In this document: positions 1,059-41,181 of the stretch, piece by piece
Numbering within the stretch: the stretch's first letter is position 1
Layout: each line of letters starts with the position of its first letter
DNA from: Nautiliaceae bacterium
GTDB taxonomy: Bacteria; Campylobacterota; Campylobacteria; Campylobacterales; Nautiliaceae
Direction of reading: 5' to 3'
Assembly: GCA_027063865.1 (NCBI GenBank)
Contig: JAMOQT010000036.1
Coordinates: forward strand, 1-41,735
DNA length: 41,735 bases
Made by a program: the position numbers and the translations under genes
The notes under the pieces: generated by a model
Databases searched by the model: none
What the model was told of the DNA's origin: nothing
The model's input: only the letters and a program-made list of their open reading frames with translations

Positions 1059-1303
1059 TATGTCTCCTTTTATGGTAAGCTAAAAGCTGAAAGCATAAAG
1101 CCTATTTGCTTTCGCTCACTTAAAGCTAATTTGTTTTAAGTTTTTTTATTATACATAGTTTATTATAAAAATGTTAAAATTCGGTTAAAGAAGTGGGGTA
1201 AGTGGTGTATGTGTAAGTAGTTAAGTTGTGAAAGTATAACTTCTATAAATTTCCTTCACTACTTCACAACTTAACTACTTATACGCTTTATTAAAGGATA
1301 AAA

Positions 1304-14680: not shown

Positions 14681-14790
14681 GTTAAGTAGATAAGTAGTTA
14701 AGTTGATAAGTTGTGAAGGGTATATATGCAATATTGTCTTTTAAACCTTCACGACTTCACGACTTCACAACTTCACAACTTCACAACTTA
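14681..14790. repeat. Octad-repeat hairpin at the 3' end of miaB
   Basis: Left arm aagtagat|aagtagtt|aagttgat|aagttgtg|aag; right arm cttcacga|cttcacga|cttcacaa|cttcacaa|cttcacaa|ctta; innermost 11 bp perfectly complementary. Confidence 0.75.
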
Positions 14791-16059
14791 TTTTACCACT
14801 TCCCCGCTTAATGTATGTTTATTGGCGTTTGTTATTTTAACATCGACAATTTCACCGAGGTATTTATCCTTCTGTGGTATTTTTACCGTAAAAAAATTAT
14901 CGCTTTTACCCATTCCCGGTTCTTCAATTAATACTTTATAAATCTTTCCGATTTGGTTTTTTGCAATTTCATCAAGTATTTCGGCATGCCTTTTTTGAAG
15001 TCTGTATAATCTCTCTTTTGCCACTTGTTTATCCACTTGATTTGGCATGTCGGCGGCTTCGGTAAGAGGTCTTGGCGAATATACAAAACTGAAAATCTGC
15101 TCAAACCTGACTTTTTCAAGTACATCCATTGTTTCTTCAAAATCTTCTTCACTTTCACCCGGAAATCCCACTATTATATCGGTTGTAATGCTGACATCAG
15201 GAATTTGACGTATTATTTCGCATCTGTTTAAAAACCATTCCTTGCTGTATCCTCTTCTCATAGCCTTTAAAAGTTTAGTGCTTCCGCTTTGAAGAGGGAA
15301 ATGGATATGTTTGCAGATTTTAGGATTGTTTGCGAATTCTTCTAAAAATCTGTCGTCCGCATGAAGCGGATGGGGGGATGTGAATCTGATTCTCTCAATG
15401 CCGTCAATTTTGCTCACTTCCCTTAAAAGATCGGTAAAATCGACTTTTGGATGGCTTACGCTGAATCTTTTTCCGTAATTGTTTACGTTTTGTCCAAGAA
15501 GCGTTATTTCTTTAACGCCTTCAGCGGCTAATTTTTCTATTTGCCCGATAATCAAATCCATCGGAATTGAAAGCTCTTTTCCCCTGGTTTTCGGAACAAT
15601 GCAGTAAGAACATTTTTTATCGCATCCGACCATTATGTTTATAAAATCTTTATAAGGGTTTTTTCTGGTGTTTTTGAAAACATATGTAGTTTCATCGTAG
15701 TCTAAATCCGTAATAACCGCTTTTGGGGTGTTTAGGGCTTCTTTTATGCGGCTGACGTTTCTTGCGCCAAGGACAAAACTTACAAAGGGTGCTCTTTTGA
15801 TGATTTCTTTTCCCATATGCGAAGCCGTACATCCGCATACGCCGAATTTGGCATTCGGATTTTTTTTATTTAACGCACCGAGTTCGGAGAAGAGTTTTTG
15901 GACCGGTTTTTCCCTGACCGAGCAGGTATTAAGAAGAATCAAATCGGCATTTTCAGGATTTTGGGTAATTTCATACTCATCAGAGAGTTCTGCGATGATG
16001 TGTTCGGAGTCTTTTACGTTCATTTGACATCCGAACGTTTCAATATATAATTTTTTCAC
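14788..16059 (-). CDS. miaB: tRNA-2-methylthio-N6-dimethylallyladenosine synthase MiaB
   Basis: [39 protein letters not shown] radical SAM motif, TRAM-like C-terminus. GTG start at 16059 preferred because a small ORF occupies the region upstream; the ORF track start is 16119. Confidence 0.95.
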
Positions 16060-16630: not shown

Positions 16631-16692
16631 TGTATTCCTTTTGTCTTTTATTATTATTTTAGCAAAAATTTTTGTAAAATTATACCTAAAAA

Positions 16693-16787
16693 AGTACTCA
16701 GTAAGCAGTAAACAGTAAACAGTCTTAAGTGAATTTTTTTATTTAAAATTTAATATACTATACTGGATACTGAAAACTGAAAACTGA
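16693..16787. repeat. Heptad-repeat hairpin upstream of nusA
   Basis: Left CAGTaagCAGTaaaCAGTaaaCAGT; right ACTGgatACTGaaaACTGaaaACTG; 4-nt complementary cores spaced every 7 nt. Confidence 0.75.
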
Positions 16788-16802
16788 ATAAAAAGGATAA
16801 TC

Positions 16803-17876
16803 GTGGAAAAAGTATTGGATTTACTATCGCTTGTGGCAAATGAAAAAGGTCTGGATTTTGAAGAAGTAAAAGAGGCGTTTAAACGCTCAATTATAAAAAC
16901 TGCCAAAAAAGTACTCGGTGATATAGATGTTGAAGTGGCAATTGAGGACGGAGAGCTAAAAATATACCAGATTTTTGAAGTAAGAAACGATGATACGGCT
17001 CTTGAAAATCCTGAGAGATATTTTTATCTTGACGAAGCTAGGGAATTTGACCCTAACGCACAAATAGGGGATAAGCTTAAAGTCGAGCTTGATCTGGGTA
17101 AGCTTGGAAGAAGCGGCGCAATGGCGCTTCAAAGAGAATTTGAAAGGGAAATTACAAGACTTTTAGAAAATGAAATATACAGAAAGCTCATCTCAAAACT
17201 TAACACTATTGTAAGCGGTGAAGTTGTAAAAGTGGACAGTGAAGAGAATACATGGGTTGAACTTGACGGAGTTAAAGGCGTACTGCCTATGAGAAACAGA
17301 ATCAAAGGCGAAAAATTTGAAGTCGGCGATGTAATGAAAGCCCTTTTAAAATATGTGCATTTTGATACCAAGAGGGGTATTACAATCGAACTTAGCCGTA
17401 CAAATCCAAAATTTTTGGAAAAGCTAATTGAATCTGCGGTCCCTGAAGTTAGGGATGGAATTATAAAAATACACACAAGTGCCAGAATTCCGGGGGTTAG
17501 GAGTAAAGTGGCTGTAAGCTCTCTTAATCCTAAAGTGGAACCGATAGGAACCATTATAGGTAAAAACGGAGTTAGAATCAATGCTGTTTCCAACGAATTA
17601 AACGGTGAAAACATCGATGTGATTGAATATTCCCCCAAACCGGAAATTTTTATTGCAAGGGCATTGTCTCCGGCAATTGTAAAAAACGTTCAGGTTGATG
17701 AAGATAAAGCTTATGCCTTAGTTGAAGTGGACCCAGACCAAAAAGCAAAAGCAATAGGAAAAAACGGTATAAACATAACACTTGCCGGAATGCTTACGAA
17801 ATATAAAATAGAACTTAAAGATGCAGAGGAAAAAACAAAAGATACGAGTAAGTTAGAGAATCTATTTAAAATATAA
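16803..17876 (+). CDS. nusA: Transcription termination/antitermination protein NusA
   Basis: LDLLSLVANEKGLDFEEVKEAFKRSI, S1 domain, KH domains (IGTIIGKNGVRINAVSNELNGENIDVIEYSP; AIGKNGINITLAGMLTKYKIEL). Confidence 0.97.
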   Translation: MEKVLDLLSLVANEKGLDFEEVKEAFKRSIIKTAKKVLGDIDVEVAIEDGELKIYQIFEVRNDDTALENPERYFYLDEAREFDPNAQIGDKLKVELDLGKLGRSGAMALQREFEREITRLLENEIYRKLISKLNTIVSGEVVKVDSEENTWVELDGVKGVLPMRNRIKGEKFEVGDVMKALLKYVHFDTKRGITIELSRTNPKFLEKLIESAVPEVRDGIIKIHTSARIPGVRSKVAVSSLNPKVEPIGTIIGKNGVRINAVSNELNGENIDVIEYSPKPEIFIARALSPAIVKNVQVDEDKAYALVEVDPDQKAKAIGKNGINITLAGMLTKYKIELKDAEEKTKDTSKLENLFKI

Positions 17877-18841: not shown

Positions 18842-19617
18842 ATTATTTTAATTTCTTCTTTGAGTAAAATACCGAAATTTTCAAAAACCCTTTTTTTTGC
18901 CTCATTAATTAAAAACAGCATATCATCAAATGTCCCGTCGCCCGTATTTACAAAAAAGTTTGCGTGAATTTCGCTGACTTTAACACCGCCTTTAACCATT
19001 CCTTTCATTCCGACGGATTCAATCAGCCTTCCTGCGTAATCGTTATCCGGGTTTTTAAAGACACTTCCTAAACTCGGTTCTTTAGGTTGATTTGAGCGTA
19101 TTTTTTTTAATTCTAGATCCAAATCAAAATCGAATTTTCCCTTAATTTCAAAGACCGCTTCAAAGACAGGCTCATTTATATTTGAATGTCTGTAGCTAAA
19201 TTCGAACTCTTTTTTTTCTTTTAATCCCTCGGTTGTTTTTATTGCGGCTAAATGATTTGAAATTTCGTATTCCTTAACCCCCGCGTTCATTTTTACACTG
19301 CCGCCTATGGTACCGGGAAGCTTGCTTAAAAATTCAAAGCCTCCTATATTGTTTTTTTTGCAAAAATTGTAAAGTATTTGATTATTGGTTTTGCCTCCGA
19401 CGTGCAAATAACCGTTTTTAATTTTTATGTATTTATATCTGTCGTCTAAAACGGCTAAATTTTCTGTATTTGGGGAAATAAGTGTATTTGTGGCTTTTCC
19501 GATGATAAATTCTCCGTTATAATTGTCTTCGCTTAGTAATTTAACTTTTATTTTAGGACCTATTTTTATGCTTGAAAATTTTGAAAAATCAATAATTTTC
19601 CATTTTACATTTTCCAT
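18838..19617 (-). CDS. murB: UDP-N-acetylenolpyruvoylglucosamine reductase
   Basis: GGFEFLSKLPGTIGGSVKMNAGVKEYEISNHL, FSYRHSNI, PSLGSVFKNPDNDYAGRLIESVGMKGMVKGGVKVSEIHANFFVN. Confidence 0.95.
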   Translation of the reverse strand: MENVKWKIIDFSKFSSIKIGPKIKVKLLSEDNYNGEFIIGKATNTLISPNTENLAVLDDRYKYIKIKNGYLHVGGKTNNQILYNFCKKNNIGGFEFLSKLPGTIGGSVKMNAGVKEYEISNHLAAIKTTEGLKEKKEFEFSYRHSNINEPVFEAVFEIKGKFDFDLDLELKKIRSNQPKEPSLGSVFKNPDNDYAGRLIESVGMKGMVKGGVKVSEIHANFFVNTGDGTFDDMLFLINEAKKRVFENFGILLKEEIKII

Positions 19618-19630
19618 TTTTATTTTCCAT

Positions 19631-19897
19631 TTATCTTAGAAAAGTAGGTATAAGTTTAAATACATAAGTGGTAAAATCAATTATTTCATTCATCATCCAC
19701 GGCATTGTAAAAATTAAAACCACCGCAATTGCCAAAATTTTAGGAACGAAACTCAGCGTCATTTCGTTAATCTGCGTGGTTGCCTGAAAAATTGAAATCA
19801 ATAAACCCACTATCATTCCTACAAGCAATGCCGGAAGAGATAACAGAAGTGCAAGTTTAAGCGTTTGGACTGCAAGGGCTATTATTTCAGACTGCAA
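19631..19897 (-). CDS. fliQ: Flagellar biosynthesis protein FliQ
   Basis: 88 aa, ALLLSLPALLVGMIVGLLISIFQATTQINEMTLSFVPKILAIAVVLIFTMPWMM. Confidence 0.96.
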   Translation of the reverse strand: MQSEIIALAVQTLKLALLLSLPALLVGMIVGLLISIFQATTQINEMTLSFVPKILAIAVVLIFTMPWMMNEIIDFTTYVFKLIPTFLR

Positions 19898-20363
19898 AAT
19901 CGACTCCTAATACTTTCATAACGGCTTCATCTACTTTTTTCATTTCTTCTTTACTTAGTTTTGTAACCAAGCCTTTTGAAAAAATTATTTTTCCCGTTGA
20001 TATTATACCAATTGCTGTGGCTACTATTTCGCTGTCCTTGCTCATATTGTCCCTTTTTTTAATCAAAACCCTGTAATCTCCGCCTAATATCTGTCCCGAA
20101 AGCGGCAATACCACAACCGTATGATATAACCCTTCAAAACAGGCTTTGTTTAGGAAATCATTTTGATATATTAAAAACGGTCTGGTTTTGGCAGAATCTG
20201 TCAGTTTTGCAAAATAAATCTCACCCCTTTTGAATTCGGGGACTTTTTCCCCTTTGAATTCCCCTTCGAAAAATTCAATGTAACTTGCCCGCTGCGTTCT
20301 TGGTTTGCACTTTAGTGACAGTTCGTTTCTTTCAAGCCATTTTTGAAATTTTTCACTTTTCAT
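19887..20363 (-). CDS. PemK/MazF-family toxin-like protein with N-terminal extension
   Basis: FKRGEIYFAKLTDSAKTRPFLIYQNDFLN...YHTVVVLPLSG...DSEIVATAIGIISTGKI PemK/MazF pattern; extra ~40 N-terminal residues. Confidence 0.75.
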   Translation of the reverse strand: MKSEKFQKWLERNELSLKCKPRTQRASYIEFFEGEFKGEKVPEFKRGEIYFAKLTDSAKTRPFLIYQNDFLNKACFEGLYHTVVVLPLSGQILGGDYRVLIKKRDNMSKDSEIVATAIGIISTGKIIFSKGLVTKLSKEEMKKVDEAVMKVLGVDFAV

Positions 20364-20366
20364 TTT

Positions 20367-21266
20367 TCACTTTTCATTAAATCTCAGGTTTTTATATTCT
20401 CTTGGTATCATATATTCCCTTATGTCTTTTATTCGGGGCAACAATCCCGCCTTATGTCCTATATCATACAGTTTATTGATCGCGTTAATTTGTTCTTCAT
20501 CAAGTTCGATTGATTTATCGTTTGCGTAAAGCGAGAGGTATTTATCAAGCGTTTTATCATTAACCCTCACTAAATTTCTTTCGATTAACATTTTTGCAAG
20601 AAGGTTTTTATGTGTGTTTGCCACATCTACCGCTTTTGTCAAAATCTCTTCAATTTCAATTGCGTTAAGCAGTGGAATTGAGCGCCTGATTGCCATTCCG
20701 CCAAGGGGCAGGGGTGTGTTCCCCGCAAGTTCGACCCATATATCCCAAAGCTCTTTTTCAACTTCCAGCCTTTCATCGAATGTTAAAATGCTTTCATGAA
20801 TCAATACACCCGCATCCACTTCGCCGTTTAATACGGAGTCTTCTATTTCAAGGAAATTTTTGTAAACAATTCTCGCTTTTGGGTAAGCAATTTTAAAAAT
20901 CAGTGCGTTTGTGGTGTATTCGCCGCTTAGCGCTACTTTAAAATTGGGTTTTAGTTTTTTGCCTTTTAGTTTTACGAGCTTAGGACCATATCCGTAACCG
21001 AAACTAATCGCAGTACGTAAAAGCGCATATTCATCCTTTATAAAAGGATACGCCCCAAAACTTATAGCACTTACGTCATATATGTTTTTAAGGGCTTTTT
21101 GATTAAGTGTTTCAATATCCTCGGCTATATTTTCAAAATTGTATTTAATTTGGCGTCCTGGGCTTACATTTATCCACCCGAATTTAATTGCATAATACAT
21201 AAAAATGTCATCCGCATCCGGAGAGTGTGCCACCGTTATTTTTTTAATTAATTTTTCATTATCCAT
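20367..21266 (-). CDS. mqnD: 1,4-dihydroxy-6-naphthoate synthase-like protein (futalosine menaquinone pathway)
   Basis: ITVAHSPDADDIFMYYAIKFG, YDVSAISFGAYPFI, GVLIHESILTFDE, NTPLPLGGMAIRRSI; MqnA/MqnD family, MqnD preferred. Confidence 0.85.
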   Translation of the reverse strand: MDNEKLIKKITVAHSPDADDIFMYYAIKFGWINVSPGRQIKYNFENIAEDIETLNQKALKNIYDVSAISFGAYPFIKDEYALLRTAISFGYGYGPKLVKLKGKKLKPNFKVALSGEYTTNALIFKIAYPKARIVYKNFLEIEDSVLNGEVDAGVLIHESILTFDERLEVEKELWDIWVELAGNTPLPLGGMAIRRSIPLLNAIEIEEILTKAVDVANTHKNLLAKMLIERNLVRVNDKTLDKYLSLYANDKSIELDEEQINAINKLYDIGHKAGLLPRIKDIREYMIPREYKNLRFNEK

Positions 21267-21309
21267 TTTTCACTCTCTTTCACTTTTTTCACCCTTTTTT
21301 ACTTTTCCC

Positions 21310-21860: not shown

Positions 21861-21943
21861 GAAAAGGGTGAAAGAGGGTTAAAAAGGATAAATCTCTTCC
21901 CCTTCAACCTTCATCCTTCTCCCTTCACCCTTCACCCTTTTTT
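21861..21943. repeat. Heptad-repeat hairpin upstream of recA
   Basis: Right arm ccttcaa|ccttcat|ccttctc|ccttcac|ccttcac|cctt; left arm degenerate aagggtgaaagaggg...aagg. Confidence 0.75.
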
Positions 21944-27725: not shown

Positions 27726-27941
27726 CAGGGTTGTTTCATGTTAAACTACAAAGATAAAAATATGACAGCTTCGTGCTCCTTTTTGCTTACGCAACACTCA
27801 AATTTTGCTAAAAAGTGCGAACGGCAAGCGCCCTTACGGGTAGACGCACTTTTTTTAACGCAAAATTTTCGTTAAAATCCGCAACGCTGTCATATTTTTA
27901 CTTTTTCGTTGTTTGAATTTTATCAGCGTGAAACAGCCCTG
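27726..27941 (+). mobile_element. MITE-like element copy 2 (216 bp), 10-bp TSD TGGAAAAGAT
   Basis: CAGGGTTGTTTCATGTT...AGCGTGAAACAGCCCTG; TGGAAAAGAT at 27716-27725 and 27942-27951; about the same sequence as 2812-3024. Confidence 0.92.
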
Positions 27942-34262: not shown

Positions 34263-34300
34263 TGTGGACCTTTTTTGGGTAAAATTTTATCATAAAAAAG

Positions 34301-34344
34301 AAAAGGAAAAGAAGAGGTAAAGAAAAGGAAGAGAAGAGGTAAAG
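34301..34344 (+). repeat. 22-bp purine-rich tandem repeat x2 between mraY and fabG
   Basis: AAAAGGAAAAGAAGAGGTAAAG followed by AAAAGGAAGAGAAGAGGTAAAG (one mismatch). Confidence 0.75.
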
Positions 34345-34376
34345 AAAAAGTGGAAAAATTATATAAAGGAGCATAA

Positions 34377-35415: not shown

Positions 35416-35470
35416 TTTTTCCCTTTTTTAGGGATTTGGATTTATAAAATATCCGAAATCATCGCTGAAT

Positions 35471-35535
35471 GCGTAAAGCTGAAAGCTGAAAGCTAAGGAT
35501 AAAAGCTTTGTGCTTTAAGCTTTGTGCTTTTAGCG
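35471..35535. repeat. Heptad-repeat hairpin between acpP and fabF
   Basis: Left aaagctg|aaagctg|aaagcta; right agctttg|tgcttta|agctttg|tgctttt|agcg. Confidence 0.75.
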
Positions 35536-40669: not shown

Positions 40670-40971
40670 CAGGGCTGTTTCACGCTGAAGATATTTAAAT
40701 AACGAAAAAGTAAAAAAAGACAAGGTTGCGGATTTTAACGAAAATTTTGCGTTAAAAAAAGTGCGTCTACCCGTTAGGGCGCTTTACAGGCGTATGAAGT
40801 GCAAGTTTACACATTTTCATCGCCGTGCGAGCCTAAAAACGACAAGCAGTTGTCGTTTTTTTAACGGCTCTCCCGTTCGCACTTTTTAGCAAAATTTGAG
40901 TGTTGTGCAAGCAAAAAGGAGCACGAAGCTGTCATATTTTTATCTTTGGAGTTTAGCATGAAACAACCCTG
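40670..40971 (-). mobile_element. MITE-like element copy 3 (302 bp, inverted, with ~88-bp apical insert), 10-bp TSD AGTTATGAAT
   Basis: CAGGGCTGTTTCACGCT...AGCATGAAACAACCCTG; AGTTATGAAT at 40660-40669 and 40972-40981; reverse complement matches copies 1 and 2 outside the insert 40785-40872. Confidence 0.9.
40835..40862 (+). terminator. Terminator-like hairpin within the apical insert of MITE copy 3
   Basis: AAAAACGACAA-GCAG-TTGTCGTTTTT perfect 11-bp stem followed by TT. Confidence 0.45.
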
Positions 40972-41181
40972 AGTTATGAATTATGAGTGGTAAATTTTGA
41001 GTTATGAATTAATACTAAAACATAAAATAACTTTTATATTCAGTTTTTCTTGGCACTGACTAAATGTCAGTTAGGTGATTAGGTGTTGAAGTGTGGAGGT
41101 GTTTATAATTTCAATATCTCAATCCTTCTTCTTCAAAACCCCTCAACCCCTATTTAGTCAGTTCCTAATGACGGAAATAGT

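Follow-up and report, generated by a model that had tools for sequence, protein, structure and literature searches.

Dispersed intercistronic palindromes, which form hairpins between genes, are known from bacteria as REP/BIME elements. The STRR heptamers of Calothrix and Nostoc and the long SSRs of Mrazek 2007 reportedly show an excess of 7-nt intergenic tandem repeats for which slippage was proposed; polarity and placement at stop codons are apparently not part of these descriptions. Rehm et al. (2015, PMC4692102) described the GGGAATC heptamers of Xanthomonas, which they discussed through G-quadruplexes, and the GGGGAYT heptamers of Nostoc, and MacGregor (2015, PMC4679880) described the intergenic TAACTGA direct repeats of Beggiatoaceae, which occur in 2-6 copies. 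The earlier heptamer repeats of several phyla have each been explained locally, by quadruplexes or by regulator sites.

The DNA analysed here (the window, 41,735 nt) is contig C36 of a 951-kb metagenome-assembled genome (MAG), 57% complete. Its NusA shares 96% identity with those of G001 and G002, two complete genomes assigned to the same genus, and we take the genus of the MAG and its congeners to be Nautilia. In these vent bacteria dozens of intergenic places hold short units repeated every 7 or 8 nt. The dispersed intergenic hairpins resemble REP/BIME, but there is no common palindrome; instead, tandem arrays from several unrelated families make up the arms.

The Nautilia arrays share with GGGAATC of Xanthomonas (PMC4692102) that they are intergenic heptamer arrays lying on the sense strand close behind stop codons, that paired arrays are convergent with the G strand on the left and the C strand on the right, and that arrays are not common to orthologous loci of related species. 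The placement described by Rehm et al., on the sense strand within 50 nt behind stops, was found in 38 of 44 cases. In contrast to Xanthomonas, the units are A-rich and without G-runs, so that quadruplexes are not expected; the main units AATTGAG, AAAAGTG, AAAATGG and AAGTTGTG contain no run of three G and so cannot supply the four G-runs of a quadruplex. Furthermore, several families with 7-, 8- and 9-11-nt periods coexist, and there is no antisense preference near starts (8:10). Since the units lack G-runs, another cause than quadruplexes must act at least in Nautilia. The TAACTGA repeats (PMC4679880) are likewise intergenic heptamers of a sulfur-habitat bacterium, with a unit close to ACTGAAA; however, they mostly end just upstream of starts, with one unit per genome and one inverted repeat, whereas Nautilia has many families and inverted pairs, and TAACTGA is not among the recurrent units of its arrays. 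As far as open-access full texts show, the Nautilia arrays are of the bacterial heptameric SSR kind and belong to neither of these two sets. Several unrelated word families with matching placement and polarity in one compact genome make the rule separable from any one sequence and its cause, be it mutational, transcriptional or structural, testable.

The nusA leader and the other arrays of the window

Repeat arrays and associated features of the window
Feature	Position	Strand	Remarks
8-nt hairpin, AAGTTGTG/AAGTAGTT family	1211..1284		upstream of tsaD
8-nt hairpin, AAGTTGTG family	14681..14791		directly behind miaB stop codon
AT-rich segment TTTTAGCAAAAATTTTTGTAAAATTATACC	16649..16685		conserved in family (six-genome alignment); putative promoter role
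nusA hairpin left arm, heptad array CAGTAAGCAGTAAACAGTAAACAGT	16699..16723	+	
nusA hairpin right arm, heptad array ACTGGATACTGAAAACTGAAAACTGAA	16762..16788	+	
nusA	16803..17876	+	TIGR01953
ATTTTCC 7/14-nt array	19595..19632	-	overlaps start end of minus-strand ORF
TTTTCAC-family heptad array	20348..20378	-	minus-strand gene junction; G-type on coding strand
TTTTTCAC-type array	21266..21306	-	minus-strand gene junction; G-type on coding strand
CCTTCNN heptad array (right arm), irregular G-rich left arm	21861..21943		upstream of recA
10-nt array AGTGAAAGAA	26149..26175	+	
11/22-nt purine array AAAAGAAAAGG	34296..34348	+	upstream of fabG
AAAGCTG / GCTTTGTGCTTTAA hairpin (7/14-nt)	35463..35535		between presumed acyl-carrier-protein-like ORF and fabF

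The original prediction had described a hairpin upstream of nusA in which four CAGT cores face four ACTG cores at 7-nt spacing, and both the gene and the arrangement were confirmed. The CAGT cores start at 16699, 16706, 16713 and 16720 and are separated by the triplets AAG/AAA/AAA; the ACTG cores start at 16762, 16769, 16776 and 16783 and are separated by GAT/AAA/AAA. Period 7 was detected in both arms by TRF, and the minimum free energy of 16693-16788 was -22.3 kcal/mol, compared with -12.1±2.6 for shuffled sequences. Read on one strand, the two arms differ at the same positions of every copy (CAGTAAA vs CAGTTTT).

The segment TTTTAGCAAAAATTTTTGTAAAATTATA, which precedes the hairpin, is conserved across the family and is probably a promoter, which could serve nusA, the gene divergent from it, or both. 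In three genomes of the same genus the hairpin segment sits between this conserved AT-rich segment and the Shine-Dalgarno, and the left-arm heptad spacing is partly common to G001 and G002. The segment was found in Nautilia only, being absent from the other genera of the six-genome alignment, and in G001 and G002 it folds no better than shuffles (z -0.5 and -0.9). Since the segment persists in two congeners but does not fold significantly there, and other genera do without it, a conserved RNA structure at this place is unlikely, and so is a hairpin essential for nusA. Thus the structural function which had been considered for these hairpins found no support at nusA as a conserved one. A known structured RNA element was rejected for the hairpin and the arrays, as the Rfam search of the window at gathering score returned tRNA only.

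Four further places had been predicted to follow the same design. The 8-nt versions at 1211-1284 and 14681-14790 both fold strongly (z -6.5 and -5.4, respectively). The hairpin at 35471-35535, just before fabF, has a left arm of 7-nt AAAGCTG units and a right arm built of a 14-nt higher-order unit; from a reading of its sequence, the ORF in front is presumably acyl-carrier-protein-like. At 21861-21943 the right arm is a CCTTCNN heptad array as predicted, but GGGTGAAAGAGGGTTAAAAAGG, the left arm, lacks a regular period and folding is only weakly favoured (z -2.1).

Two other elements were noticed in the window. Three 14-nt copies of TGAGTTATGAATTA at 40970-41011 may represent a decayed heptad array. 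A 146-bp MITE-like element with the terminal inverted repeats TAAAAATATGACAGC...GCTGTCATATTTTTA is present in at least four copies in the MAG (window 27755-27900; G000 C60:1078-1223, C2:12580-12725 and C28:15413-15558).

Abundance, unit families and turnover

The scans covered 462 kb of the MAG and the whole of G002, with genes called by a simple ORF heuristic; G001 was used at nusA and in the pattern counts. Intergenic arrays of period 7 numbered 15 in the MAG and 23 in G002 (0.0 and 0.4 in dinucleotide shuffles), those of period 8 numbered 4 and 5 (0.1 and 0.0), a decisive enrichment of the two periods that the original prediction had singled out. Periods 14 and 16 were also in excess over shuffles, periods 9, 10 and 11 were present at a lower level, and periods 3 to 6 and 12 showed no excess in the intergenic DNA of these two genomes. 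The excess is head-to-tail and mainly intergenic, as in bacterial heptameric (5-11 nt) SSRs. Inverted repeats of score 14 or more were enriched as well (30 vs 1.5 in G002, 13 vs 0.5 in the MAG), and by inspection a good part of them consists of periodic arms.

The arrays form several dispersed unit families with one common architecture. In canonical form, the recurrent units are AATTCTC (14 loci), AAAAGTG (10), AAAATGG (9) and AACTTCAC (9); many loci share units of AAGTTGTG, AATTGAG, AAAAGTG or AAAATGG, and members of the AAAGC and CAGT families are found at other places of the MAG, too. Exact matches to the octad pattern CTTCACAACTTCACAACTT number 37 in the MAG, 1 in G001 and 4 in G002, whereas 38 other genomes have none. 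The predicted sharing of period without sharing of sequence therefore holds between families but not within them, since both 8-nt hairpins of the window belong to a single family and units recur at many loci. As many loci per family have units in common, dispersal or convergence of sequences must have contributed to their origin. A dispersed segment like GAGCGCAGTGAACCCGGCCACTTGAAAAGTGG was seen after several G-type arrays in the MAG (G000 C99:3468-3580, C127:21381, C5/L013 6026-6228).

The MAG and G002 were compared at the species level over 125 syntenic spacers. Arrays were present in the MAG only in 30 of them, in G002 only in 6, in both in 4 and in neither in 85. For stop-adjacent arrays, co-occurrence in orthologues was not significantly beyond chance (2 of 91 pairs in both, p 0.35). 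The comparison of orthologous spacers, proposed along with the original prediction, revealed some that carry arrays of a different unit and even of a different period; at a few places different families or periods follow the same stop codon in the two species, such as the octad and AATTGAG (own_C79|15, np|934). Since orthologous spacers hold different units and periods, a generating process is likely rather than a single inherited element.

Orientation and order of the arrays

The strongest regularity of the arrays is a strand rule, which was absent from the original prediction. Most units consist of A, G and T on one strand (G-type) and of A, C and T on the complementary one (C-type); the CAGT and AAAGC families are mixed, being neither purely G-type nor purely C-type. 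Among the stop-adjacent arrays, i.e. those whose distance to a stop codon is within 50 nt and smaller than that to the other boundary, the G-type strand is the coding strand in a ratio of 38:6 (p 9e-7), a bias partly inflated by annotation, since G-type units often contain stop codons. In orthologues, however, the C-terminus and the stop are kept in both species (e.g. YQAEALKEAGL*, KKVAREMGYN[VI]*, ELNEMIKDFEV*) while the array directly behind is present in one of them or differs, hence annotation is not the source of all of the bias. There was no G/C skew behind stops in spacers without arrays, and near starts no orientation bias was observed (sense strand G-type in 8 cases and C-type in 10, p 0.81). 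At own_C60|29, own_C127|22 and own_C57|1 the arrays enter the 3' ends of genes and provide a new C-terminal tail (e.g. ...KVKSEK*) relative to the orthologue.

The order of neighbouring arrays of opposite type is similarly biased: G-type is followed by C-type in 24 cases and C-type by G-type in 3. The same order is found for arrays which do not pair and for arrays of different families in one spacer, and the latter means that the order does not result from pairing. Of 298 Campylobacterota genomes, 13 contain the G-then-C heptad pattern; part of these 13 represent a single AAGGGAG hairpin in one genus, and most copies are in Nautiliaceae and one relative (G084); a reversed control of the same composition (C-then-G) gave no match in the 298 genomes.

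Two explanations of the placement were rejected. Fail-safe stop-codon cassettes were dropped because the effect on stops was weak (arrays have stops in 2.28 frames, shuffled ones in 1.93), GGGAATC is free of stop codons, and bacteria showed no selection for extra stops in a broad study (PMC6764699). The avoidance of false start codons upstream of genes is not compatible with the near-start orientation.

It is conceivable, though less likely than not, that one sequence-independent process or constraint acts in distant bacterial phyla, placing the G/purine strand on the coding strand behind stops and allowing pairs in no other order than G-type followed by C-type. In that case the rule in Xanthomonas would be wrongly explained by G-quadruplexes, since in Nautilia A-rich units that lack G-runs follow it as well.

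Origin of the arrays and of the hairpins

Each left arm was scored against all right arms of its own family, and in this small sample of loci chosen for good local pairing the local right arm was the best partner in only 3/6, 1/3, 3/10 and 2/5 cases in the respective families. Left arms pair about as well with the right arms of other loci as with their own. Since the arms are not locus-matched, their complementarity comes from shared family units in convergent orientation, and neither local foldback copying nor locus-specific structural selection is needed. On the best reading, the hairpins would largely be by-products of the arrays. Thus, of the generating process that had been predicted (slippage or foldback), the process itself stands as likely but its foldback variant is not required.

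The explanation which we favour, and hold to be on balance probable, is that slippage-prone arrays of the heptameric-SSR type turn over fast, are dispersed as families and are subject to a strand-specific constraint that acts as a filter. The nusA hairpin would be one member of a genome-wide population of short-unit arrays, mainly of 7 and 8 nt, found between the genes of a compact, AT-rich Nautilia genome. The arrays, of a few unit families dispersed over many loci, would come and go quickly, for which replication slippage in steps of 7-8 nt is the simplest mechanism; copies that are alike within an arm while the arms differ at the same positions, as at nusA, would fit slippage within the arm. 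They would survive where promoter and Shine-Dalgarno are left undisturbed, as is seen in the aligned spacers, and the filter would retain G-type arrays mostly on the coding strand behind stops and, on both strands, G-type before C-type. Our preferred guess for this filter, a possible one since rho exceeded the cut-off in each of the five complete or near-complete genomes searched for it, is the avoidance of unpaired, C-rich, G-free untranslated RNA: such RNA would be a loading site that recruits Rho, and the G-first order would sequester it co-transcriptionally. At nusA, two arrays of the same family in convergent orientation in the leader would be sufficient for the hairpin, and an influence on the expression of nusA, if any, would be a side effect. 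It counts against this explanation that slippage does not account for identical units at many loci.

Alternatively, convergent arrays could be kept as bidirectional insulators, mRNA end protectors or leader control elements, the structure being conserved while the sequence drifts. The hairpins of the MAG do fold far better than shuffles, orthologous spacers are moderately correlated in the strength of their inverted repeats (rho 0.40, p 0.003, n=51), and at C127:22637, at C92:7638 and in the acpP-fabF spacer the hairpins differ in sequence between the two species, those of acpP-fabF being folded but unrelated. The correlation and the acpP-fabF hairpins hint at some selection for structure. However, we consider a selected structure as the general explanation rather unlikely, given that the arms are not locus-matched, the nusA segment has no significant fold in G001 and G002, the position of the arrays relative to the likely promoter varies between loci by inspection, and the G-then-C polarity extends to arrays that do not pair.

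Improbable is a local foldback, in which one array arises, the other arm is copied by intrastrand template switching and the perfect inverted array then decays. Several near-perfect hairpins (e.g. 1211-1284 and 512720 in G002) would agree with it, and a foldback restricted to G-type nascent strands could produce the polarity, but the local partner is often not the best one and many arrays stand alone or have a partner from another family. Quite improbable is that the units are protein- or RNA-recognised sites or copies of a small mobile element, as MacGregor proposed for TAACTGA (PMC4679880): identical units do recur within a family, yet a single placement rule holds across several families and periods, which is unexpected for one binding protein, and no fixed ends or common element are visible by eye around the arrays. 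Untemplated or hairpin-driven elongation by thermophilic polymerases was rejected, since the units in PMC13061963 are short palindromes, unlike those of Nautilia.

Related patterns were also seen outside the genus. Three AATTGAG units in tandem have exact matches in 40 stretches of IMG/VR contigs (L209-L248, about 51% GC), and the reversed unit GAGTTAA, also in three copies, in 11; thus the AATTGAG heptad is not confined to Nautilia. On these viral contigs crude ORF calls run through the stop-free C strand, which blurs the orientation of the arrays. In a different genus (f11 g15; G062, G100, G112, G144 and G163) a AAGGGAGAAGGGAG...CTCCCTTCTCCCTT hairpin is near-identical between species, unlike the fast-changing arrays of Nautilia.
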